Below, piece by piece: positions 1,574 through 54,216 of a DNA stretch of 64,000 bases; position 1 is the stretch's first letter; every line of letters starts with the position of its first letter. The stretch spans positions 713,638 to 777,637 of the forward strand of contig PJRA01000453.1 in NCBI GenBank assembly GCA_016987375.1, read 5' to 3'. This DNA is from Brachionus koreanus (lineage: Eukaryota > Rotifera > Eurotatoria > Ploima > Brachionidae). Made by a program: the position numbers and the translations under genes. The notes beneath the pieces are model-generated. The model ran no database searches. It saw only the letters and a list, made by a program, of their open reading frames with translations, and was not told the DNA's origin.

Positions 1574-3736
1574 TTAAATAGCTGAAACTCCGCTTGAGCT
1601 AGACGAGAATGTAATTAGGGGTTGATTAGAAGAGGCGTTGGACGAGGCTGGCGACAATTCTCCATAGACCACACACGAATATTGTTCCTGTTCATTTAGC
1701 TTTACTTGCTGTTGATGGTGTTGAGGTAGCTGCTTGAGTAAGACAACAGTAGGGTTGATGGGAACAGGCCGAATTGTGGTCATATAATGCGAATTAATAG
1801 TTCCACACGGCATGACAACCATTGAGTCAAATGAAGGCATGTGATTAATTGGATTGTATTCGGCATAATTATTCCATTGATTGTTTTGTTTGTTTAAAGT
1901 CTCGTAATAATGCTGAGTCGGTTTGTTTGTATTGTAGGCCAATTCTGAGCCACTCGATGATAATGACTCACATGCTGACATGTGCTCTAAGTCGAATGGC
2001 GGCACTTTGGCATACGAATCAACACTTGATGTAAGAGTACGATTAGTTGATTTATTAGATCTTGACATAGTACTTGAACGATACGTTTGTTGATCAATAT
2101 CGTTTTTATTCTCGTAATATTTTCTTAGCTTTTTACTCAAATAGCTCCATAGACAAAAAATATTTATTGCTATAAGAACTATTGAGACTCCGCAAGCAAT
2201 AGCTATAATTAGAATAAAATCTTGGCTTAATAAAGCAATATTGTTGTCGTTTTTGAGAGCTATTTTAAACGTCGATGTAACATCTTCGTTGTCTTCAATT
2301 GTAATGATGCTTTTGAGGATTTTAGTTGTGCTTGATTTGCTTGTCGATCGAGAACTATGTGTGCTCGGTCTCTGTGTGTTTAGTATCGAATTTGAATTAA
2401 CACTTTTCCTAGTACTGCTCTCTGACCTAAATGAAGATGAAAATATTGTCGATGACGATCCACATGCCACTCGAATTAGTCTATTGCCACTATTATCGCT
2501 CAGACCAGAAATTAATTTTTCTCTCTGTTTAGTCAAAACAGGCTCAAATTCGCAGATAAAAGCATTTTTTTGCATACATGACTCCTCGGACCAATCATTA
2601 AGTGCTTTGGTAAAGCACTTTGATTCGTTTTGTTTACGAGACCAGTATTTTACTCGATCGACAAGAAAATGATCTATTCTCATATCATCGACAAAGTCTT
2701 TGATTGAAATTAGACGACCATTGAGTGACTCGCATGACTTGGATGCCTCGAACCAGTCCAGTTTATAGGAATTTTTTTCGTCATCATCGCCAAAAAGCTT
2801 AATGCACTTGTTAGAACTAAATCGCTTTGAGTTAAACGGGCAATATGTTTCCGACTGTGTCGATACTTTGATCAAAAAGCCTCTTCTTGTTATAACATCA
2901 TCGGATTTAAATTCTAAGCTAAACTTTGCACCTGACGAATAGAGCTCTTTGAAACGCTTGTTTTGTCCACACATTGACACATCTTTTTTGTCTGATTTAA
3001 TTCTAAAATAGTCTTTTTGACACACATCAGTTATACTCTCTTCCAAATCGAATTCATAGCTTCTAAAGACCAAATTCATTTCTGATTTGGTACTAATGCT
3101 TGATTCAGAATTTGAATCTATTTTGACATATTCCATTTTACAGCTGCAATTGTTCATGTTGTTTTTGTATTCGATGGGATAGTCTGGACTAGTCAAATAG
3201 AACGAACCAAATCTTGATAGTGAATTTGAATTTTTATTCTTGGCAAAACTTGAGTCTATGATAAAAGTCTCGTCATTTGAGCATATGTCTATTTTTTGAC
3301 TACCCGGTATGCATTCGTATGCAATTGAAATGTAGTCGGAGTTGTTTTTGCATGAGTGTAAGAATTGTGCGTCTAGGACAATGTCGCACGAGTTCAGGCC
3401 GTTGCATTGATTGGCAATGTAGTCGACAGTGACCACACAGTCGTTTGGAGACGGTCTGCAGTCGTCACCCACTGCTGGTTTAGCTAAACTAACGCCATAT
3501 TTTGTTTGGCCTATGAACAAAAAGTCATTAACATTGGGACATTTCAGACGTAGTTTGTTTATATTTTGGTTTTGTTCATTTTCGTAGAATAAGTCGCGTT
3601 CAAAGTCTTCAATAATCGAATTGTATTCAGTGTCTATGTTGTGGTTAAACGCCGACAAATGTCGCGTACATTTAGTCTGATATTTCCAGCCAAACGCTAA
3701 ATTTATTTGTATCACCAAAGCTAAAATCTTAAACAT
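1574..3736 (-). CDS. SUEL-lectin/CUB/C-type-lectin single-pass membrane receptor
   Basis: Intronless 720-residue type I membrane protein. A hydrophobic signal peptide covers residues 1-16. A SUEL (rhamnose-binding, Gal_Lectin) domain follows at about 61-143, recognisable by its cysteine spacing and the NSCDIVLD and SIAYEC motifs. Next come a CUB domain (about 152-295, with FYLTSPDYP and CGQNKRF) and a short C-type lectin-like domain (about 299-397, with WFEASKSCESLNGRLISI and the final FICEFEP). A Ser/Thr-rich stalk (about 420-480), one transmembrane helix (about 508-533) and a 190-residue cytoplasmic tail rich in Ser, Tyr and Gln complete it. The CTLD lacks an obvious EPN/QPD sugar-binding motif, so calcium-dependent sugar binding is doubtful. 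Likely a cell-surface adhesion or recognition receptor; ligand unknown. The ATG at 3736 directly precedes the signal peptide. The architecture is clear; no orthologue name is offered. Confidence 0.9.
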   Translation of the reverse strand: MFKILALVIQINLAFGWKYQTKCTRHLSAFNHNIDTEYNSIIEDFERDLFYENEQNQNINKLRLKCPNVNDFLFIGQTKYGVSLAKPAVGDDCRPSPNDCVVTVDYIANQCNGLNSCDIVLDAQFLHSCKNNSDYISIAYECIPGSQKIDICSNDETFIIDSSFAKNKNSNSLSRFGSFYLTSPDYPIEYKNNMNNCSCKMEYVKIDSNSESSISTKSEMNLVFRSYEFDLEESITDVCQKDYFRIKSDKKDVSMCGQNKRFKELYSSGAKFSLEFKSDDVITRRGFLIKVSTQSETYCPFNSKRFSSNKCIKLFGDDDEKNSYKLDWFEASKSCESLNGRLISIKDFVDDMRIDHFLVDRVKYWSRKQNESKCFTKALNDWSEESCMQKNAFICEFEPVLTKQREKLISGLSDNSGNRLIRVACGSSSTIFSSSFRSESSTRKSVNSNSILNTQRPSTHSSRSTSKSSTTKILKSIITIEDNEDVTSTFKIALKNDNNIALLSQDFILIIAIACGVSIVLIAINIFCLWSYLSKKLRKYYENKNDIDQQTYRSSTMSRSNKSTNRTLTSSVDSYAKVPPFDLEHMSACESLSSSGSELAYNTNKPTQHYYETLNKQNNQWNNYAEYNPINHMPSFDSMVVMPCGTINSHYMTTIRPVPINPTVVLLKQLPQHHQQQVKLNEQEQYSCVVYGELSPASSNASSNQPLITFSSSSSGVSAI

Positions 3737-20825: not shown

Positions 20826-20828
20826 TTT

Positions 20829-20900
20829 TTCCCACACCGGGAATTGAACCCGGGCCGCCTGCGTGAAAGGCAGGAATCCTAACCACTAGACCATATGGGA
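20829..20900 (-). tRNA. trnE-UUC: tRNA-Glu (anticodon TTC)
   Basis: On the minus strand a 72-nt intronless cloverleaf begins TCCCATATGGTCTAGTGG and ends with GTGTGGGA plus discriminator A. The acceptor arms pair. The A box (TGGTCTAGTGG) and B box (GGTTCAATTCC) are present. The anticodon stem CCTGC/GCAGG closes a CTTTCAC loop with anticodon TTC at 20865-20867. It is very close to metazoan nuclear tRNA-Glu. No CCA is encoded, as expected for a nuclear gene. It sits 160 bp downstream of the 7TM receptor on the opposite strand. Confidence 0.97.
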
Positions 20901-22000
20901 ATCTTAAAGAATAATTCTTTTTAATCAAACGATATACCAAAAAAGAATGCTGACTAGAAATCTTAATAGACATTGCTTTGAATTCGGGTCGTAAATATTT
21001 ATTTTTTTTTTATGAAGAGTGCTTTTAGTATTTAATTATTAAAATGAATTTGAAAAGATTAGTTGGGATTTGATTAAATTTCTAAGTCGAATCAAGTTCT
21101 TGTTGATATTGTTTTTAGAATTAATAATTAATTTAGATTCAATAAGTATTTTTTTACAAAGATTAAAGAGTCTATCGTAAAGAAAAAATTTTGTCAAAGC
21201 TTTCAAAATTGAAAAATAAAAATAAAGTATGCATATAAAGAGAAAAATAGAAATTTCACTTAGTCAAGTTTTTTTTTCCCTATCGACTAATCTATCTGAG
21301 TAGGTAAATTGTATTAAAAAATATCTAAATTGATCCATTTTTTTTATTAATTTAAAAAAAGTCGGAAATATTCTGAAAAAAAGTTTCTTTGCCTATTTTT
21401 CACTCTTTAATTTTAGTTTGAAATCATCAAATTTTTTTTTAATATATTTTTCTTTTTTATTTCCAAAAAAAAAGATCATAAATTTTTCTTTCTTCAATTA
21501 ATTTTTAAGCGAAAACTTCTTCAAGTGAATGAGCAAAAAAAAGCTTTTTCTCTTAGAAATGTATTAGATTAAAGTAAAAAAGTTTGGTCAACGCATAGCA
21601 CTATTTTATTTAAAAATAAGTTAGACACAACTTTGGTCAGTTGAGACTTAGTTTTGAAACAATTTTTAATATAGACGCAAAACTATTTCTATTGTCTGTC
21701 AAAATGATTTTAAAATAGAGAAATATTCTAAAAATTTATTAGGATATCGGCCAGATTATTGAATTCCAGAGCTGGATTGTGTTATCGAAAATTATGTAAC
21801 ACTAAATTACATAATACTGATTCATTTGATTCTATTTATCATGTTATATTATTACTTTATCAGTTTATTTTAAAACATCATGTTTAAAAAAAATTCCTAA
21901 GTGTTATTTAATTAATTCCAGTTAAAATGTGTACTCGAATGCACTTAGTGATGGTTCTTAGAGCATTTAAAAACAAATAACAAACAACGAGCATTAAGTT
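20901..22000. other. Intergenic, nothing recognised
   Basis: A/T-rich sequence with no supported gene or repeat unit. Confidence 0.4.
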
Positions 22001-33415: not shown

Positions 33416-36365
33416 CTATTTACCTGATTTATCAAATTTGATATCACCGAAAAATAATTTTATCTCATGCTCGGCTTGTTCTTGGGTGCTCGGACCATGC
33501 AATGCGTTTTTCAGCACATCAATTCCATACAAAGCCCTCAATCTATAAAAAAAATATTTCTAATTATTTTAAATAAATTTAAATTAAATAAAAAAATAAA
33601 CATAATTGTTAAATAATAAAAAATTTGATATTTAGATATTTTTTAATTAAAAAAATTACGATTCGGGATTTTCTTGTTTGGCTTTTTCAGGATCTACGGG
33701 TCCGATTGTTTGTCTCCAATTCTGAATGGCATTTTCTCTTGACAAAACCATTATTTCAGTCTCGCCACTTAAATTTAAAAGTAAAAAAAATAAAAATTCA
33801 ATTTTCCATTTTTTCTAAAATTTTCTACCTGGTCATCAAATTGACCAAATCATCATAGTATTCTTTATCACTGGCATTTTTATACATCTCTTTAGCAATT
33901 TCTTGGCTGAGTGTATCGGATTTTTTTGTCGCTATAATAAAACCAAAATCTTCAATTTTCTTTTTAATTTCCTCTTGAATTTAAACAAAAAATAAAATAA
34001 AATTAAAATCTTAAGAATTATGAGATTTAAGTACCTCTTTTTTCAGGTGTTAGACCAGGTTTTAGGACAGCAACTGTCTGTTCCATGGGAAAGAAAGTTT
34101 CTATTTCTTTTTGTGCCTGCTCTTCAGTCGACGGTCCATGCAAAGCATTAATTGGAGATCCCTCGACATCAAATTCGTTTCTTAAAGTTCCGGCTGCTTC
34201 TTTTATTTGTTCTTTTTCCTTGGGTCCAAGCAAGCTTCTCCAAGTTTGAATGGCATTTTCTTTGGCCAAACAAAGAACCATCATCTGACCACTGGTCATT
34301 TCTTTGACCAAATCATCAAAATAAGGTCGGTCCTTGTGATCGGCATAGAATTGCTCAGCTTGATCAGCACTTAATTGAACAGTTTTGCTCATTGCAATTC
34401 TAAATCCTTTATCCTGAATTCTTTTAACTATTGATTCATGGTGCTTGTTGAACGCACTCGGTCTAATCAAAGCAAGTGTTCGTTGTATTTTTTCATTTTT
34501 TTGAGAATTTTCGTAATCAGGAAAGAAAAACGCAAGCTCTCTAGTAGCCGATTCGTGGCTATCACTACCATGAATGGCATTCATTAGCTTATCACTGGCA
34601 TACTGACTACGGAACGAGTCTGGATTCTCTTGTGGTTCCTCAATATCGGCTCCAATATCCTGGCGCCAGTTGTTTATAACATCTTCGCTGTTTCCTTCTT
34701 TGGTCAAAGCCAATACACATGATTCATCACTGGTCATGTACCGGATTAAGTCATCAAAGTGAGGCTGAAATTTTTGAAAAATTTTAATTCAGTTGAATTT
34801 TTTTTTTCAAAAATAAAAAAAAATTTTTTTAAATTTTTATTAATTACATCATCTTTTTTGTGACCGTAAAATTCCCTGGCCATTTTTTCAGTAAATTGAA
34901 CATTTCGTTGTTCGACTATTTGGTATCCTTTGTCTTTAATTTTTTCTATAATCTCATCTTTTTTGTTCTTGGCAATCATGTCTGGTTTGATTATACAAAT
35001 GGTAATTGGTCTTTCGGTTTTAACTTTTTAAAAATTTAAAAAAATAAATCAATTTTTTTCTCCAAATTTTACTCAAGTGATGCACTTGTTCCTTTGATTT
35101 TTCTTCGGCTCGTTTTTTTCTTAATTTTTCAATTTCTGAATCTGTAATCTAAAATTTGTTTAAAAAAAAAAAAAAAATTCTTGAAAAAGATAGTTTACTG
35201 GTTTTCTCTCCGCTTCTCCTTTGAGCACTTTGTGTTCTTGCTCGAGTTGTTCACTGATGGTTCGAACAATCAAGGGAGCATTAGCACCCCTGACCACACT
35301 TACCAGTTCCTTGCCCTGAGGAAAATATTTGAAATTAGTTTTGAGAAAAATTTCGAAAATTTACCTACCGCATAAAAAAGGAAACAGGGCTCACTGCGTC
35401 CCCTGTAGTCTTCCAGTGCATTAATTGTATCAGCTTTAGCCTTAGTAGAAAAAAATTTTTAAAAATCTAGTTTCAAAATGCATTAAGATTAAATATTTAA
35501 AAGCAATTTATATCTAATAGATAGCAAGCAAATATTTATGTGAAACTCACTATGGCAAAGTGTAATTTGTCATCACCGAGTGTGTTTTTAAGTGATCTAA
35601 ATCTTGACTCCATGGCCCTAAGGGGTCCGCCATAGCTCTGGTACACATCAATAACTATTCATTTATTTATTAATAATAATAATAAAAATAATAAAAAAAT
35701 GTGATTTTTTTTAAATTAAAAAAATATAGTGATAAATCAAAAATTTGGTCTAGTGGTGAATTTTTTGTGAGACTAAAAAAATGTGAATTTTAGTCTAAAT
35801 AAATAATTAATTTTAATTACAACGGCGAATTTTAGCAAATCGTCTGACTGTTCCATTTTAATTTTTTTAAAGATGTTCTCAAATGCTTTACATGGTCCAC
35901 ACCAAGCCTGGTACGCTTCGGTAACTAGCAAAAATTAGATTAGAAAAAAAAATAAATGGATAAACATTCTTTGGGGACTCGAATTATAAACATGCATCTA
36001 CAACAGGGAATACTTAAATGCAACAAATAAAAGCGCTAAGGGCTTAAAATTCTAAATTATTACACTAATGAATTTAATATTAGTTTTATATTTGCAAACA
36101 CTTTTCATAAATCGAAGGACATGATACGATGGACCTGTCCATCTCTGATAAATATCAATTACTAGTATTGAAAATTTAATCGAATAAATAAATAAAGTTT
36201 AGAAATATGTTCGTCTTTTACCGATAAGACCTTCATTTTCCAGCAGTGTTTTCCATTGATCATCTGTCTCAATTTCTTGCTTAATTTAATTTCCTGTTAA
36301 TATTTGGCTTCACATTCAATTTAATCAATTACTTGTAAAGCAATTTCGGCTTTTCTTCTTGCCAT
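33416..36365 (-). CDS. NME8: Thioredoxin domain plus three nucleoside-diphosphate-kinase domains (outer dynein arm component)
   Basis: Orthologue of TXNDC3/NME8 (sea urchin outer-arm dynein IC1), a ciliary dynein component mutated in human ciliary dyskinesia. Exons: 36333-36365, 36222-36279, then one of three alternatives (36064-36161, 35821-35924, 35551-35654), 35369-35440, 35199-35315, 35073-35148, 34848-35023, 34035-34764, 33829-33973, 33660-33767, 33416-33542. With a 104-bp alternative this gives 581 residues (human 588). The thioredoxin domain is followed by RGANAPLIVRTISEQLEQ, then NDK1 (ITICIIKPDMIAKN to NAIHGSDSHESA), NDK2 (LALIRPSAFNKHHESIVKRI to NALHGPSTEEQA) and NDK3 (VAVLKPGLTPEKR to NALHGPSTQEQA). 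All three keep the active-site His region, but only NDK1 has the canonical HGSDS. Starts MARRKAEIALQ, close to human. The final stop could be bypassed by an alternative splice. Confidence 0.95.
35551..36161 (-). other. Three tandem alternative exons for the NME8 thioredoxin active site
   Basis: Exon A (36064-36161, 98 bp) reads VIDIYQRWTGPSYHVLRFMK and ends IKFIS. Exon B (35821-35924, 104 bp) reads VTEAYQAWCGPCKAFENIFK and ends LLKFAV. Exon C (35551-35654, 104 bp) reads VIDVYQSYGGPLRAMESRFR and ends KLHFAI. Each has a TAG-type acceptor and a GT donor, enters in phase 1 (completing a Val codon with the G of the preceding exon) and leaves in phase 0. Lengths are 3n+2, so using none, two or three shifts the frame. 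Only B has the redox CGPC pair; A has TGPS and C has GGPL. All three are open and aligned end to end, implying selection on each. Separating introns are 139 and 166 bp, with 60 bp before A and 110 bp after C. Confidence 0.88.
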
Positions 36366-37114: not shown

Positions 37115-40100
37115 TTAAAGATAGTATCGATTAGAATTCGATAGAGTATTAGATAAAATACTATTTTTGCGTTGAATATCTTCATCTTTAATTTTCAAAA
37201 TGTTCAGATAATTTTCCCGACGACTGAGACTAGAGCGAACTGATGATCCCGATGATACACTTGAACATGTCGATTTAGAGCTAAGAAACTTGGGCTGATG
37301 AACAGTGGTAAAATAGTCGATTTCCTCATCGTTTTCAATGCAAAGTCTATTCACATCTAGGACACATGGATTTGCCTTCAAATAAACATATCTTGACTCT
37401 GGATGATCGGCTTTGTTGGCAGACAAAACCGATGACTTGGTAGAAGTGTAAGAAATTGTTGACGAAAGCTCGAAAGGACTTGGTTGCTGGGCACTTGAAA
37501 AAACTCTGTTCTCAGGCTTTTCTCTTTTTTTCAATTTTTCGAATATGGTCACCATGGGTAGCTTAAATTTTGTCTCATTGTGTCTCAATTCCAATAGTGA
37601 GCTGCTCAATTTAAGCATTAGAAAAAAACACGTGAATATAAATAGAAAAGCAACAAATAAAACAATCAATATAAACAAATAAATATTGATTTTAATATTT
37701 ATTTCATTTTCATTTCTAATTATTTGCTCAGTATATCCGCTAGAATTAGTCTCATTTTTTAAATCAATTTCTTTTTTAAGCTTTAAAAGAGTAAAAGAGA
37801 CTTTGGTTGAATTTAAAGTGACCGGTATTGTGTCTGCATTAAGCTTGTAATTGAAACACTTTGAGTGCTTGGCAGACCATTGACAGTAGGGGTACAAATT
37901 TTGATCACACTTTTCCATGCTTTTTTTTTGCTCACAAAAATCAGCTGGCATTGAAATAAGCTTATTTTGAGTTAAAATTACAAAAAAATCTGCATCTTTT
38001 TGAGCTATAAATTTTAAATTTTTAATCTGAGTCGATTTAGTCTCAATTATTTGAGGCATAAAAAATTGACTAGGAATTTTGTTGATGTTGTTTTCAACTT
38101 TGGAGAAATTGATGTTTAAATCAGTGCCATTGAAGAGTTCAAACTGTTCAGAGTAAATCAGCTGGTCTTTGTCGAGCACAAATGTCAAAATTCTTCCATT
38201 TTCAGTGCCGACAAACAAAGTGTCTTTGGATTGAAAATCAACATCTATGGACACAAACCGGTCGGACGTAGAGCTTTCGACCACAATGGCGTCGGATGAA
38301 ATTTCTTTTTGCATGATAAAATTTTTTCGCGAAAAGACCAAATGTTGATAGGTTAGCTCGTTAGGACACTGACTAGGTCTTGGCTTGGGCACTGATTTTT
38401 TGAATCGATTGTAACTTTCGCCAAAGTCAAAATTTCCGTTTGATTCAAATTTATACTCGCCATGAAACGAGTCCATTATTTGCTCCATGTCAAATTTGCA
38501 GATAGCCGATGCGGTTATCGAATTTGTGGATGTGCTAAATACTGCATAAAAGTATTCTTTGCCATTTTCGTTCTTATAAACTTCACTGACAGATTCTAAG
38601 ATTATTTTTTAAAAATTTAAAAAAAATAAATTTATGAGTTGTTTATTTATTTTACTTATTTCATCAAAGTAAAATGTGGTTGACTTTTTGAAAGTTGGAC
38701 TGAGAGATTCGTGAGAAAATGCAGAATTGATGGCTGGGTTGTGAGTGCAGCTAAGCTTGGATTTCAAATAGGTGGTCCAAATGTTGCGCAATGAATTAAG
38801 AGGTGCACCTCTATCATTCAAACAAATATGAGCTATGTAAGAACTTTTGTACGATTGTCGTGAAATACGATTTTCATCATTTAAATTTGTCACATCTTCA
38901 TTGAAAATAAAAAATATTCTTTTCTCATTTTTAAAAGTGCTTATAAATTCAGCTCCTAAAATAAACAAATTAGCGAAAATATTTTATTTTAATTTAATTT
39001 AGAACCGGTGTTAAAAACATTTATTTTTTATTCAGATTAGATTTAAAAGATTTACTTTTAAATTTGTTACTTGGTCTTTGCCAGTAGGCCAGGTTTTATA
39101 CTCAGCTTGGATTTTTAAAATTTTTGCTTTGCATATTATTTTGTAAACAATTGAACAAGGACTAAAATTGTGTATATCTTGATTTATATTAACGTGAGTC
39201 AAAAATTTTGGATTTTTTTAATTTATCAATAAAAAAACAATAGTTTGCTAATTTTCAAAGTATAAATCATAATGTTTTATTAGTCTTAAGCCATTTATAG
39301 GAGAGTAGTTCAATTCCTCTATTCTACCATTCACGCTATTGAAGCATAAAACTCACAGCACACTTCTTCAACTTGATCTTGGTTAGTAAAATGTCGTCCT
39401 CTAACAAAATGAGCCATTGAAAGAAAAAAAATAAACTGAAGAACAAACACTGGGCTATATGCTGGGTGAGAAAGAAGTTGGATCCCTTCAAGCACTTATA
39501 TTTTTGTCATTGTACTTCTAGCTGTTTGAGGTCTAGTGTTATCTTGAAGAAGTTTTTGGTTGACCAAAGAAGAATACTTTTGTTGTAGTGGAGCATACAT
39601 TTGTTGTCACGACCGTTTGAGCCAGCTGAAAGAGTATAGCCCCTTGGAAATTCCACCATACATACAAAATCATCTTTATATCAAAGTGTACTCTTTTCAC
39701 GACTGATTTAGCTGGTTTAGATGGATATAAAAAGCCCGTATAGCGAGTGGTTTGTGTGTTAGTCATGCAAGCAGAGGGTGGAGGGTTCTAAACCTACTGA
39801 GGGTGGAAAAATTTCAAAATGTCTCTACAATACGGGGCGCATGTTTAAACCCCTTTCATAAAAAAATGGGAGACTGGTTTCGACTGGGAAANNNNAATGG
39901 ATATAAACATTGATTTCTGTTATCATAATTTCGAAAATAGATCTATTTCTCATCACAAGTAATGATCTGTTTGAAAAACCGTTCATCTAGGCGATTTAAG
40001 TAGTTACTGCTGTTGCTGATAGGTCTTATTACCAATAATGATTTATCAGTTCATTTAACAATTTTTTTTTGAATAAAATAAACTGATGAAGTTTGATTAA

Positions 40101-47118: not shown

Positions 47119-49623
47119 AATCTAAAGCTATTTAAAGACAGTGATGAGAAATTTCAAATAGTGCTTTTTGAATCAAAAGCCCATTTATAATGAATTGAAA
47201 AAACATCTCAAGGAAAATGTCCATTAATGATTTTAAAATACTCGTTAAATTAATTGTCTAGATTTTTTAATTGATTTTTAACGCTCAGCTTAAGTTTCTT
47301 GTAGAAATTTTTATAATATTTCTTCTTTTTTTTTTAAATTCAATCTTGAACAAATACACAGTTTATTTGGTACATAATTAAAATAAATAATTAATTTATT
47401 GCTAAATAATTTTTTTTTCAGGTTTGAATAGACAAAATAATTTGAATATTTGATTATTTAGTTATATTTTATTCATTAAGAAAACAATTTTGTCGGTCTT
47501 TCAAGCCGCAAAATGAATTTAGCTAGAATTTTTTTGTCAAAAATTAACTTATTTTGGGCTATTTAGATTAATATTTATTTGCAAAAAAAAAATTCTTTTA
47601 ATTTTAAAATTAAATGTTTTTTGTCATAAAAAAAACTTTAAATTAAATTAATTTGAATTTCAAAGTATAAAATGAGAAATTTATTCAAGCTTGAGCTTTT
47701 GCGTAATAAATGATTATTTTTTTTAAATTGATTTGTTTTTTATTTACTTGCTTTATTTAACTATTATGATGAAAAAATTCTCTGAAATTGTAAAAAAATA
47801 TTCATGGAAAATTTTTGAATTATATATCAAAATGCAAAACAAATATTCAAATAGCCAAAACGTAACTTAGTGATTTGAAATTAATTTTTTTTTAATTCTT
47901 TAGAAACTTATTTGATTACAAATTGTTTAGGAAAATTATCGATTAATACAAAAAAATAAGCAATAAAAGGAATTTTATTCTATTTAATAGAGAAAATTTT
48001 GAAATGTAAATTAGTATAAAAAACATTCGAAACTTTTTCTATATAATTTTCAATTTATTTAAACTATTAATGTTCTATGTATTTATTTGGAGAGAAAACA
48101 ATTAGTCATTTGATATATAAATAATTTTTTAAGGACTATCTTTTTGAAAGTTATTTGGCATTGAAGAAGTCATATAAAAACTGAACTAAACTTTTATTTT
48201 TATATTATTTATTTTTTTCTAAATTCAAATTGACAATTAATAAAAAAGTTCTTGAGCCTTTTAGTCTAAAATATTTGCATTTGTTTCTATTATTCTTTTA
48301 AACAATGGTTAACAATTTATCAAAGAGTTAGTTAATTTATTTGATTATTTTTTCTATGTCTCTTTTGGTGATTCACAATTTCCCAAAAATTTTAAAAATA
48401 GAATTACAGACTAATATTCGCAAAATGAGTATAATTTTAAATTTTTAAATTTTCAGATTTTCAGATTTTTTGTGCAAACTTACAGAATATTAAAAAAAAA
48501 AAAAAAACTCTCTCAAATTATTTGGTAAGCCAAAAAAAATAAAAAAGTTGATCAAAAACATAGACTTATTTTTAATTAATATAACATTGATAAAAATAAT
48601 CCAAATAAAAATGCTGAAATTTAATTCAAATATTTAAATGTCTACGAAATCAAGTATTTAATCTTTTTAATTACTACACTAATATTAGAAATGTGAATTT
48701 TGGCAGCTAATACATAGGTTGCATAACCCGTTTTTTTTTCTCTAGAAAAAGCTCTGCTATTCTGCAAAATAGTAAATGAATTAATTTAATCTTTTAAAAA
48801 TTAAAATATTGGGTGCAAAATCTTGAAGGAGAGAGGACCTTTGAATATTTTTTTTAAAGATAAATAAAATCTTTTCTGATCAAGAGATCAAATTTGAAAT
48901 TTTCAACGTTTAAGCATTCAATTTTTGATAATATCAATTTGATTTATGTAGATTTTGTTACAAATTGGAATTTTTCAATTTAAATATATTGTTTTTAATA
49001 AAAGGCCCAAAAAAATTAAGGTTTTGGTAATAAAAATGTGAGAAAAATAACTTTTTTTCAAAATTTTAAAAATGGTTTTATTCTGAAAAAATCGTTTCTT
49101 ACTTAATTTTACGTAAAATGACACAATTTTTGGTAAAATTTTTAAATTAAAAAAAGACTTAAAAATCAATAAGTTATTTCTCCAAAAATTTTCAAAATGA
49201 ATTAGTAATTAAAGCTAATTTAATAAAATCTAATAATAGAGAAAAATCGTTTGGATTTTTTTACAAAGAGATCAATGAGATTGAAATTCACTACGTTCAA
49301 GCTTTCTATTTACAATAATATAAATTTTTAGTCAATTTTTATAGATTTTATTAAAAAACTTAAAACATTTGATTTAAATTTTTCAATGTTTAATTTTTCT
49401 AATTAGTCAAAACTTTACTAAATTAACTTTTTATACAATTTAGATAAATAAATAAAATGTTAATCAGTCTATTAGACAAGGGTTTTGTGAAATTTAGTAC
49501 AATATAACAGAACAAAAAGTTAAAAAGTCTTATTACTATACTTTTAAAAGTCAAAAGCAAGTTCTGTAAATACAAAATGGTGCAACATTCAAAGTTGCAC
49601 TATTATCAACAACATGGTAAAAT
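47119..49623. other. Intergenic region between SSBP1 and assembly gap
   Basis: A/T-rich, no gene recognised. Close to the gap, at 49578-49598, the sequence GTGCAACATTCAAAGTTGCAC forms a small palindrome (split here as GTGCAAC / GTTGCAC arms) that may belong to the unresolved repeat. Confidence 0.45.
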
Positions 49624-50471: not shown

Positions 50472-53400
50472 TTAATTAATAAACAATTTGGGAAAGTCAA
50501 TATCACCAAGAGTAACCGATTTACTTTGATTCAAATTCTCCTTATTCAAATGAGACTGAACACTGGCATTAGTGCTCAAACTGCTAACGCTAGCATTCGA
50601 TTTGTTCGGATCGGCAAAGTCTTTGGACACAAAATCAAACACTTGCTGATACTTTTCATTGCACATCAAATTTTGGTTAGTTCTGAGCAAATTTTGCTTT
50701 AGCTCATCGAACGGCATTTGATAAAAATCCCTGATTATTTTCTGGTTTTTCTCATGCTGATCGTCAACGGACACGTTAATGCCAAAAGGGGGCATACCGG
50801 CAGGCGCGATGCTACTATTAGGTCCGTGAGTGCTCGAGCCGACGCCTAGGCCGCTATTGCTCAGATTGCTGGCGTTCACATTCGACCCGCTATTGAACAA
50901 CATGCGTCGTATGGTGTCAAAACTAGTCAAGTCGACATAATTACTTCTCATTCCGTTCACAGACGTAATTGTTGTCTGATTATCGTCTATGTAAAATTTC
51001 ATGTTCTCTTTTAGCTTGGGATCGAGTTCGAAGCCGTGGTCTATGCTTATTTGGCTAGCGCTGTCGTAGGAAGTGTCGTCGTCCATCGAGTCCATGTCGA
51101 TAGAGCGGCGCGGCGTCTGGTTGCTCTGCGATATGCCGCTGAAGCCGCGCGAATGGCCCCGATTGAACGCCTCTTCGTCGGCCGTCTCACTCTCATTCGA
51201 ATACGGATTGCGATAGCGCATCGCCGACTGCACGCACGGCAATGCTTGCACATAGGCAAGCGACAGCGTGTACTCGGCACTTGTAATCAGCAAATTTTTA
51301 GAAACATTATTTCTAACGAGTATTTGTTCGATGCGCTTTTTGTCGAACATCCAAGGCGACAACTTGACACACCAGTCAATTTCGTTGTCGCTGTTGCGAC
51401 TCAGCTTGTCCACATAGGCCCTGTAGTCTTTGGCCGACTCGGTCATGTCTCGCCTGAGCTCGGACTCTATTTCGCTGAACGAGCTAACTTGGGACTGTAT
51501 GCCCGAGTCGCTCGCCGAGTCCAGCAAAATGTACTCCGGATAGACAAACTTGTACAAGTCTTTGCGCCGCCTCATGTCGCATATTTCGCTTACATAGTCG
51601 TACAAATCGCCTATTTGGCTCCATTTGGCCACTAGTAGAAAATAGGCGCATATAAATTTGTGCACTGAGCACTGTAGACTAAAGTTAAACGGCGCCGAGT
51701 CGTGATTCAACAGCGCCAAGTCTTGTACATAGAAACCGAAGCGTAGAAAATCGACCAAAAATTCGCTATCGTTCAAAAAGCCTAGTACAATCAGACTCAA
51801 TGTTACATAGACTGATTCGTAGTTTTCGCGACGATTGTTGGCTATGAACAAGTACTCGTTAAAATGGGCGAGTATTGTGCGACCGTGTTTGCGCATGAAC
51901 ATTGAATCGTCGCGACTCGACCGATATTTTGTCCTATTTCGATCGTCTAAGCTCAATTGACTTAGAAACGTTTGATTTCGACTAAGTGTTTGTTTGGTCT
52001 CGTGTTTGTTCAATGAAAGCGCACTATCGTTTAGACTGGTGGCCGATTTGAAATTTTTTTTCAATACAGGCACACGATACGTGCCCGGCTTAAGCGCATG
52101 TATCCGCTCGAGCATCTGATACTTGTCTATGAGCAATTGTAGTATTTCGTTGGCTTTTTTGCGCGACGCATAATCGCTGACTAGAATTAGCTTGAGGCTG
52201 TCCTCGAGAAATTGTTGACTGCCGAACGCGCCGAACACTTGCACCGGCTTGTATCTCGTGCATATTTCGTACAAGCATTCGTAGTATTTGACTCGTTTGC
52301 GACTGTTCAACAATTCCAATTCGTTTTTGTCCGTTTGTGCGTTGCCACTCAGCTCAAAATAGCTAAATTGCTGCGTGTTTATTTGACGAGCGAAAAATAC
52401 TAGTATGTCATTTTTGGCATAGTCGGGCATATTCTCGGTAAATTGACGCATTGCGCTTATTATCTCCTTTTGCAGTTTGTTCTCGTCGGACAAATTGTCG
52501 GCCTTTTGCGACGACAAATTGTACGATTTTTCCACACTTATGTTCATGTGCTTGAGCAAATTGTTGAATATGTCTATTATTTGACCGGTGGTGCCCACAG
52601 ACTGCATGGCGCTTATTTTAGTGCACAGGATTATGGTGCGTATTATTTTGCATTTGAGTGGTGCACGCGAGTTTCGATGCGAGTCCAGGTGTTTGAGAAG
52701 CTCGCGTACAACAAACGCGTGCTGTTGTCTCACATTGTATATGACAATTAGAAAAATACATCTAACAAATTTGGTCAAGTTCCATCCGTGCTGAGTGTTG
52801 TCGTCCAAAAAATCCAGTATTGGCACGACTATTTTGCTTATTGTCGTATAATCGGCCTTGTTGCATATGTTTCTTAACAAAGTTTTAGCCTCGTGTTCGG
52901 GATCGGGCTGTTCAGTGTTAGTTCTGTTCTCGTTTAGACTTATGACCACGTTTTCCTCGTCGGCGCACTCCGAATCTCGTTTGAACTCGACTTTTAGCGC
53001 CGACTCGCTACCCATCTTGTCCACGCTTCGTCTCAGCCTAGTGCTCATGTACAAATCGCCGTAAATGTACTCGGTAAGCTCTTGTTCGTCCTCGTTATAG
53101 TCGTAGTCGCTTTGATCGTGACGATCGTTGTTTTTCGCGTCGCGCGCTAAATAGCGTTCGTGTATTATGAACAAAATGCCAGCTACTATTTTGTCGACAT
53201 TGTCCCAAATGTAGCCAGCGCGTAAATTGTCGTCAGGCACTAGTCTATGAACCATAGTGGCCAAGCATTGCAGGCCACTAGTTCTTATTTCGGCACGTAT
53301 GGCCTCTTCTTTGTTGTTATTAAAACACAATGAGCTAAATTGACACACAAATTGATCGAAATTTAAATTGTAATTTGACAAATTAGAAGATTCTTTTTCG

Positions 53401-53864
53401 CAAAATTTTTGGAAAAGACCAGCTGCTTTTTTTTGATAGCGAAGCGATTCGTTGTTGATGGTTGTAAGGGTGCCGTAGCTGGACGCATTCGACATGCCAT
53501 TCTGGGACACCGACTGGGTTCTCAGACCGTAGCCTTGTTCGAGCAGCTTTTGAATCACTTTCAAGTAGGTCGGAGCGTAGTAGTTCAAATTTTGTGGCGT
53601 TATGGCTAGTAGAATTTTTTCCAGCGCTTCGATTGTATTCTCTATGTACTTGGCGTATTTGTAGCCGTTGTTTAGTGCCCATTTCAAATTCTGGTACAAG
53701 TATTCGCCTATTTTGGACAATTTCTCCGGATGAACAGTCGCATAGTAGAGCAGCTTGTCCACTTCGTTTTTTACCAGCGGCGCGTCGTTCTGACGCGGAT
53801 AGATATTGTCCACTTTGCGCTTATATTTTGGATAGAAGCAGCAGCAAGCACAGCATGATGACAT
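50472..53864 (-). CDS. EFR3: EFR3 homologue (plasma-membrane scaffold for PI4KIIIalpha)
   Basis: Palmitoylated membrane anchor that recruits the PI4KIIIalpha-TTC7-FAM126 complex to make PI4P at the plasma membrane. Intronless, 1130 residues from the ATG at 53864 (vertebrate EFR3A/B about 820). I chose this ATG over the in-frame one at 53906 because it places the palmitoylation cluster at the very start (MSSCCACCCFYPKYKRKVDN), as in the family. Matching segments include DKLLYYATVHPEKLSKIGEY, AIRAEIRTSGLQCLATMVHR and the helical ARM/HEAT-like repeats. The C-terminal third is longer, Asn/Ser-rich and poorly conserved. The coding region is much more G+C-rich than nearly everything else in the window. 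An acceptor-like TCTATTCAG just upstream suggests a spliced or trans-spliced leader. Confidence 0.93.
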   Translation of the reverse strand: MSSCCACCCFYPKYKRKVDNIYPRQNDAPLVKNEVDKLLYYATVHPEKLSKIGEYLYQNLKWALNNGYKYAKYIENTIEALEKILLAITPQNLNYYAPTYLKVIQKLLEQGYGLRTQSVSQNGMSNASSYGTLTTINNESLRYQKKAAGLFQKFCEKESSNLSNYNLNFDQFVCQFSSLCFNNNKEEAIRAEIRTSGLQCLATMVHRLVPDDNLRAGYIWDNVDKIVAGILFIIHERYLARDAKNNDRHDQSDYDYNEDEQELTEYIYGDLYMSTRLRRSVDKMGSESALKVEFKRDSECADEENVVISLNENRTNTEQPDPEHEAKTLLRNICNKADYTTISKIVVPILDFLDDNTQHGWNLTKFVRCIFLIVIYNVRQQHAFVVRELLKHLDSHRNSRAPLKCKIIRTIILCTKISAMQSVGTTGQIIDIFNNLLKHMNISVEKSYNLSSQKADNLSDENKLQKEIISAMRQFTENMPDYAKNDILVFFARQINTQQFSYFELSGNAQTDKNELELLNSRKRVKYYECLYEICTRYKPVQVFGAFGSQQFLEDSLKLILVSDYASRKKANEILQLLIDKYQMLERIHALKPGTYRVPVLKKNFKSATSLNDSALSLNKHETKQTLSRNQTFLSQLSLDDRNRTKYRSSRDDSMFMRKHGRTILAHFNEYLFIANNRRENYESVYVTLSLIVLGFLNDSEFLVDFLRFGFYVQDLALLNHDSAPFNFSLQCSVHKFICAYFLLVAKWSQIGDLYDYVSEICDMRRRKDLYKFVYPEYILLDSASDSGIQSQVSSFSEIESELRRDMTESAKDYRAYVDKLSRNSDNEIDWCVKLSPWMFDKKRIEQILVRNNVSKNLLITSAEYTLSLAYVQALPCVQSAMRYRNPYSNESETADEEAFNRGHSRGFSGISQSNQTPRRSIDMDSMDDDTSYDSASQISIDHGFELDPKLKENMKFYIDDNQTTITSVNGMRSNYVDLTSFDTIRRMLFNSGSNVNASNLSNSGLGVGSSTHGPNSSIAPAGMPPFGINVSVDDQHEKNQKIIRDFYQMPFDELKQNLLRTNQNLMCNEKYQQVFDFVSKDFADPNKSNASVSSLSTNASVQSHLNKENLNQSKSVTLGDIDFPKLFIN

Positions 53865-54216
53865 TATTTTTGTCTGGCTGAATAGAATCCTAACTTTTAC
53901 AATCAAAGGTCGCAGAAAAAAAAATTAAATCTAAAACTTGTTTTTATTTTAATTTTATTTTAGAAAATAAATTTTTCAAAATTTTTAAATTTTGTCTATT
54001 TTTTTTTTTTTTAATTTTTTTAATTTTCAATCGGAATTAACTTAAAAATCTATAAAATAAAAAACAAAATTAATAATAACATTTTTTTACTTTTAGAGTT
54101 GTTAAAAATTGCAACTAACTAACTAAGTAGTAATAGAATCAGAATCAATTAGCTTGATTGAAAGACTAAATATTGCTTTATTCGAAGGCTTACCAATGCA
54201 TACATCATTTATATTA
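53865..54216. other. EFR3 upstream flank
   Basis: A/T-rich promoter and 5' UTR region of EFR3 (minus strand), with an alternative in-frame ATG at 53906. No other feature seen. Confidence 0.45.

Follow-up and report, generated by a model that had tools for sequence, protein, structure and literature searches.

In the docking/selector clusters of the Dscam type a single exon is picked from a set of homologous ones (PMC6071210, PMC1431710), and the tandem mutually exclusive exons of human genes are likewise adjacent, homologous and devoted to the same structural segment (PMC9741552, PMC5740500). One recognised way of keeping such exons apart is that including them jointly destroys the reading frame (PMC5740500), and a mutually exclusive exon event in a calcium channel has been found to be conserved across protostomes (PMC9741552).

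Alternative splicing is also known from human NME8, the gene with which we are concerned here. The isoform TXNDC3d7 is taken to arise by the skipping of exon 7, with no swap of homologous exons. This product binds microtubules and may be a component of the outer dynein arm (PMC8754002). Sequence and fold matches indicate that the thioredoxin domain of NME8 is the same domain that is found in the outer arm as Chlamydomonas LC3 and LC5, Tetrahymena LC3BL and human TXND6 (NME9), and the biological meaning of the thioredoxin domains in NME8 and NME9 was still described as an open question in the consulted part of a 2026 review (PMC13256974).

The window analysed here, a single stretch of 64 kb from the rotifer Brachionus koreanus, contains one NME8 gene (minus strand, 36365 to 33416). 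Its product has a thioredoxin domain followed by three NDK domains, the latter being the sum of five NDK matches across the gene, and this combination bears out the identity proposed in the preliminary description. Against the Pfam thioredoxin profile (cut-off 23.5 bits) the B form of the protein scores 38.9 bits and the C form 24.0, with the A form just under the cut-off at 20.5. From its sequence and the match of its fold to the human structure 8j07_v1 the protein is a putative component of the outer dynein arm. Its closest relative is the Brachionus plicatilis protein P0001, with 93% identity over residues 1-118 of the C form. A second NME8 gene was sought in the genome (83.26 Mb in 92 contigs) by a protein search with the N-terminus of the B form and none was found, the other matches, of which the best candidates were scored, being 24-37% identical and lying at places that belong to the thioredoxin family. 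Table 1 lists the exons of the gene.

Table 1. Exons of NME8 in the window, in order of transcription
Feature	Position	Strand	Remarks
Coding exon 1 (MARRKAEIALQ)	36333..36365	-	agrees with N-termini of homologues
Exon 2, constant, before the cluster, exit phase 1	36222..36279	-	acceptor picked by homology
Exon A, 98 nt, VIDIYQRWTGPS..., WTGPS	36064..36161	-	19.5 bits; weakest of the three
Exon B, 104 nt, VTEAYQAWCGPC..., WCGPC (both redox cysteines)	35821..35924	-	55.9 bits
Exon C, 104 nt, VIDVYQSYGGPL..., YGGPL (motif without cysteine)	35551..35654	-	52.4 bits
Exon 4, constant, after the cluster (AKADTINALEDYRGRSEPCFLFYA)	35369..35440	-	
Exon 5, remainder of thioredoxin domain	35199..35315	-	
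Exon 6, linker	35073..35148	-	
Exon 7, start of first NDK domain	34848..35023	-	
Exon 8, from the end of the first NDK domain through the second to the start of the third	34035..34764	-	
Exon 9, third NDK domain	33829..33973	-	
Exon 10, third NDK domain	33660..33767	-	
Exon 11, last part of third NDK domain, TAG stop	33416..33542	-	

Elsewhere in the window, and also on the minus strand, a partial Sema domain is encoded just upstream of NME8 by a frame of 457 residues (37115-38488), an uninterrupted frame of 1144 residues carries an EFR3 armadillo domain (50472-53906), a frame of 720 residues combines a CUB domain with a sub-threshold match to SUEL lectin (1574-3736), and a tRNA-Glu (ttc) is found at 20828-20901.

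Exons A, B and C each have an AG upstream and a GT downstream, a length of 3n+2, entry in phase 1 and exit in phase 0, and the stretch of the thioredoxin domain that they encode runs from strand 2 through the active site and helix 2 to strand 3. The earlier account of three successive exons for one segment was reproduced in its coordinates, lengths, phases and motifs. Any one of the three on its own gives an open NME8 protein of 579-581 aa, and with canonical sites all five wrong combinations (none, AB, BC, AC and ABC) shift the frame and lead to early stops. The claim that skipping or joining breaks the frame therefore holds for canonical sites, but not for an internal CAG that occurs at the YQ codons of each exon and which, if used as an acceptor, brings B+C', A+B' and A+C' into frame (C' being C shortened in this way).

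A profile of 27 non-rotifer NME8 segments, when run against the six-frame stop-free stretches of the 64 kb, retrieved only these exons, with E-values of 4.5e-16 for B, 5.7e-15 for C and 1.1e-4 for A; the next best stretch in the window stood at 1.1 (6.7 bits). Comparison of the open reading frames of the window with one another, at distances of up to 4 kb, gave six pairs, namely B with C, four pairs of NDK repeats and one weak pair, and exon A fell below the threshold of this comparison. The weak pair, at 48864-49328 on the plus strand, consists of two short open stretches that are alike (65% over 23 columns) and lie just before a masked run of N at ~49.6-50.2 kb.

Counterparts of B and C can be recognised in other rotifers, where a look at relatives had been suggested as a check and turned out in favour of these two exons, both B-type and C-type being present in monogonont-like and in bdelloid species. 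The B. plicatilis model P0001 is a C form; in that of B. calyciflorus (P0002) the whole B segment precedes C starting at YGGPL, and the Adineta steineri model P0003 has a B-like segment (WAGPC), an intron-like translated stretch and a C-type segment (YGGPC). The Rotaria proteins P0054-P0057 are C-type, whilst that of Seison (P0112) shows a single, divergent segment; two segments in one protein are thus confined to P0002 and P0003, that is two of the eight genome-based rotifer rows. Both of these models look mis-annotated, as they place the two alternative segments in one protein.

A further five rotifer contigs are taken to be cDNA since their 1804-2030 bases barely exceed the whole reading frame of 571-594 aa, in a gene that has ten introns here, and every one of them has exactly one segment. 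P0004 is C-type (YGGSC), P0108 and P0109 (both WCGHC) and P0111 (WCGHA) are B-type, and P0083 (WCGSC) is B-like in form and unplaced in the tree. Past the thioredoxin domain these five proteins are 54-61% identical to the window protein, 42-47% to Pecten, Owenia and Lingula and 32-38% to two bdelloids, which suggests that they are monogonont-like. In a tree of 39 segments a C-type group of six rows has support of 100/98 and a B-type group, also of six rows, 91/87, and each holds bdelloid and monogonont-like members, the bdelloid in the B-type group being one row on a long branch (the B-like segment of Adineta). The tree rests on 35 columns with an unsettled bootstrap, P0083 was excluded from it for its length and exon A stands on a very long branch; its groups were named after the sequences had been seen, and the one labelled 'moll2' is exploratory and not one group. 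On this evidence B and C have been kept apart since before the split of bdelloids and monogononts.

It would seem most improbable that the extra exons are pseudo-exons and that one exon alone is ever spliced: exon B agrees at 34 of 35 residues with its counterpart in B. calyciflorus P0002, and exon C at 34 of 35 with B. plicatilis P0001 and at 24 of 29 with the part present in P0002, against 78% identity to P0002 in the rest of the protein and 88% to P0001 past the thioredoxin domain, and each type is found on its own in cDNA-like contigs of related species. Hardly more credible is serial inclusion, whereby B would be joined to a C shortened at its internal CAG and the thioredoxin domain would contain a doubled helix-strand unit. 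The B+C' junction is in frame here and P0002 has this very form, but none of the five cDNA-like rotifer contigs does and a second helix 2 and strand 3 would have to be inserted into a compact fold, so that we read P0002 as an artefact of prediction; the double model of Adineta, for its part, runs through an intron-like stretch and looks like the work of a predictor forced to place both segments.

A different matter is whether the choice is between three exons, as was proposed, or between two. The part of the proposal that concerns B and C is strongly backed by the comparisons above; that which concerns A is weak, as the profile match of A stops after VIDIYQRWTGPSY and so covers residues 1-13 only. 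For its last 20 residues, 181 of 2000 shuffles match the profile at least as well (0 of 2000 for both B and C), and its tail matches none of the 269 collected homologues even at E<=10, whilst the tails of B and C match 52 and 186 of the 269 at E<=0.001. Exon A was also missed by the search of the genome with the B form at E<=1, is two codons shorter than its neighbours and has an intermediate coding score of -4.8 bits (B +11.3, C +17.8). All this would be expected if B and C are used and A is a skipped, decaying relic, a reading that we regard as evenly balanced, for A is stop-free (as are 5.4% of simulated non-coding stretches), is flanked by AG and GT in the proper phases, and has a coding score that exceeds those of 97.4% of simulated stop-free stretches and of all 90 non-coding control windows (maximum -6.9), these windows being overlapping and partly drawn from regions that trained the background. 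Use of exon A in another frame was rejected on account of stops in both of the other frames. Exon A appears to be homologous to B and C and its use is uncertain.

Outside the rotifers, at least four bivalves have pairs of protein models, taken from databases, in which it is just this part of the thioredoxin domain that is exchanged. The pairs of Ruditapes philippinarum (P0030/P0102, WCGPV/WCGLC) and Mercenaria mercenaria (P0079/P0094, WCGPT/WCGLC) share one sequence as far as residue 40-42 and again over the 546 residues past the segment; those of Dreissena polymorpha (P0052/P0088, WCGPV/WCGLC, the two models coming from different annotations) and Mytilus galloprovincialis (P0114/P0115, WCGPC in both) agree fully as far as residue 42-61 and over the 86-88 residues past it, with further differences downstream. 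As the source contigs within a pair are equal in size and the flanks identical, each pair is likely to derive from one gene. Of the 16 spiralian species for which two or more proteins are listed at least four, the bivalves, show two segments and 12 show one; the former count is a lower bound, as it covers the 120 listed of 249 matches and proteins are merged in the database at 90% identity. A rough count of motifs gave a false second match (YRGEL) in eight Littorina rows and missed the second segment of P0002. A search with P0101, chosen as possibly non-spiralian, gave rows of fish proteins (P0151-P0269, 119 of 379 matches), every one of them with a single WCG[PA]C segment that was recognised by pattern in 117 rows and by eye in two.

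As regards a common origin of the rotifer and bivalve clusters, the 35 columns favour neither view, and holding all rotifer exons together gave a p-AU of 0.417. It is tempting to trace the one-of-N active-site exon of NME8 back to a device of ancestral spiralians that rotifers and bivalves have retained, and which might furnish each type of cilium (feeding cilia or sperm, for example) with arms that differ in their heavy-chain contacts and redox response, although we consider this unlikely enough to be offered only tentatively. The motif itself has been eroded in several lineages, as in P0111 (WCGHA), P0058 of Mya (WAGPV), P0112 of Seison (FAGRC) and the NME8 proteins of the Magallana oyster and Lingula (P0044, P0099; WSGPC).

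The preliminary description saw in the cluster a switch between redox-competent and redox-dead domains, and this fits B (WCGPC) and C (YGGPL) in Brachionus. Were redox on/off the main purpose, the choice of isoform would set the dithiol chemistry of the arm, and it is in keeping with such a role that all six C-type rotifer rows of the tree are without the first cysteine and that the redox state alters motility and outer-arm ATPase in Chlamydomonas (PMC10886578). Against it stand the human NME8 and NME9 proteins, which seem to have no detectable thioredoxin activity according to the part of the review consulted (PMC13256974), the B-like exon of Adineta (WAGPC), in which the first cysteine is lost, and the two forms of Mytilus galloprovincialis, both of which keep CxxC. 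These last two cases mean that redox chemistry is not the shared theme, and as a main purpose we regard it as possible and on the whole doubtful.

A swap of the contact face covers the species compared, which the redox reading does not, and is the safer reading. In Tetrahymena, LC3BL lies between heavy chains, with which it changes its contacts (PMC8500839); its motif is WSGPC in our alignment and is stated to be kept in PMC10886578, as far as that text was consulted. An AlphaFold2 model of P0001, a C form, has a mean pLDDT of 86.3, with an arrangement of domains that is unreliable (pTM 0.47), and in it the swapped segment, residues 31-65, takes in a strand (29-35), the active-site loop, a helix (43-56) and a strand (61-67). 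The thioredoxin domain of this model, which is confidently predicted, superimposes on that of human thioredoxin domain-containing protein 6 (8j07_v1) with a TM score of 0.94 (by target length), at 1.1 A and 50% identity, and given this match of the predicted C-form fold the loss of the motif cysteines would not be expected to break the fold.

As a whole these observations are in our view best explained, and with a good deal of confidence, by a cluster of tandem-duplicated, mutually exclusive exons in NME8. Each mature mRNA would include a single one of the copies that encode this part of the thioredoxin domain (strand 2 to strand 3, with the active site and helix 2 between them), the rest of the protein being constant; B and C would be working alternatives that predate the split of bdelloids and monogononts, and A either a third choice that evolves fast or an exon that is being lost. 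Skipping or double inclusion through the canonical sites would shift the frame and give short products that are probably degraded, and we infer that it is on this loss of frame that exclusion in B. koreanus probably rests. The swap would alter the face that the thioredoxin domain presents to its partners in the dynein arm; in Brachionus it would in addition remove the nucleophilic cysteine, so that some arms would answer to the redox state and others would not. Steric exclusion by short introns is unlikely, the introns between A and B (139 nt) and between B and C (166 nt) being longer than the shortest of the gene (49-53 nt).

If the cluster works in this way, nature provides proteins that differ in the active-site segment and nowhere else, both in bivalves and in animals whose cilia are easily watched. 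By comparing the use and the partners of the forms it should be possible to tell whether redox chemistry or a contact surface in the dynein arm is what the thioredoxin domain is for.

The statement that no such cluster had been described in this gene family holds as far as the open-access literature searched, in which titles and the openings of abstracts mention no mutually exclusive exons in NME8, the thioredoxin domain or rotifers; subscription literature lay mostly outside this scope. In the portions of the literature consulted no exon swap is described for LC3, LC5, LC3BL or TXND6, and the algal and ciliate thioredoxin subunits are, unlike NME8, separate light chains that are not fused to NDK domains. 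Whilst the choice of one among several homologous exons is shared with the docking/selector clusters, the introns of NME8, unlike theirs, show no pairing above that of shuffled sequences, with 46 to 175 of 200 shuffles as strong for the six intron pairs of this one species; competition between paired introns is one of the known routes to exclusion and no prerequisite for it. The main texts of PMC9741552 and PMC5740500, in the portions consulted, name neither NME8, TXNDC nor thioredoxin, whereas the piece that is swapped here is the active site of a thioredoxin domain. The exon swap of NME8 is in our assessment real and deeply kept, and represents a known kind of cluster at an unusual target.
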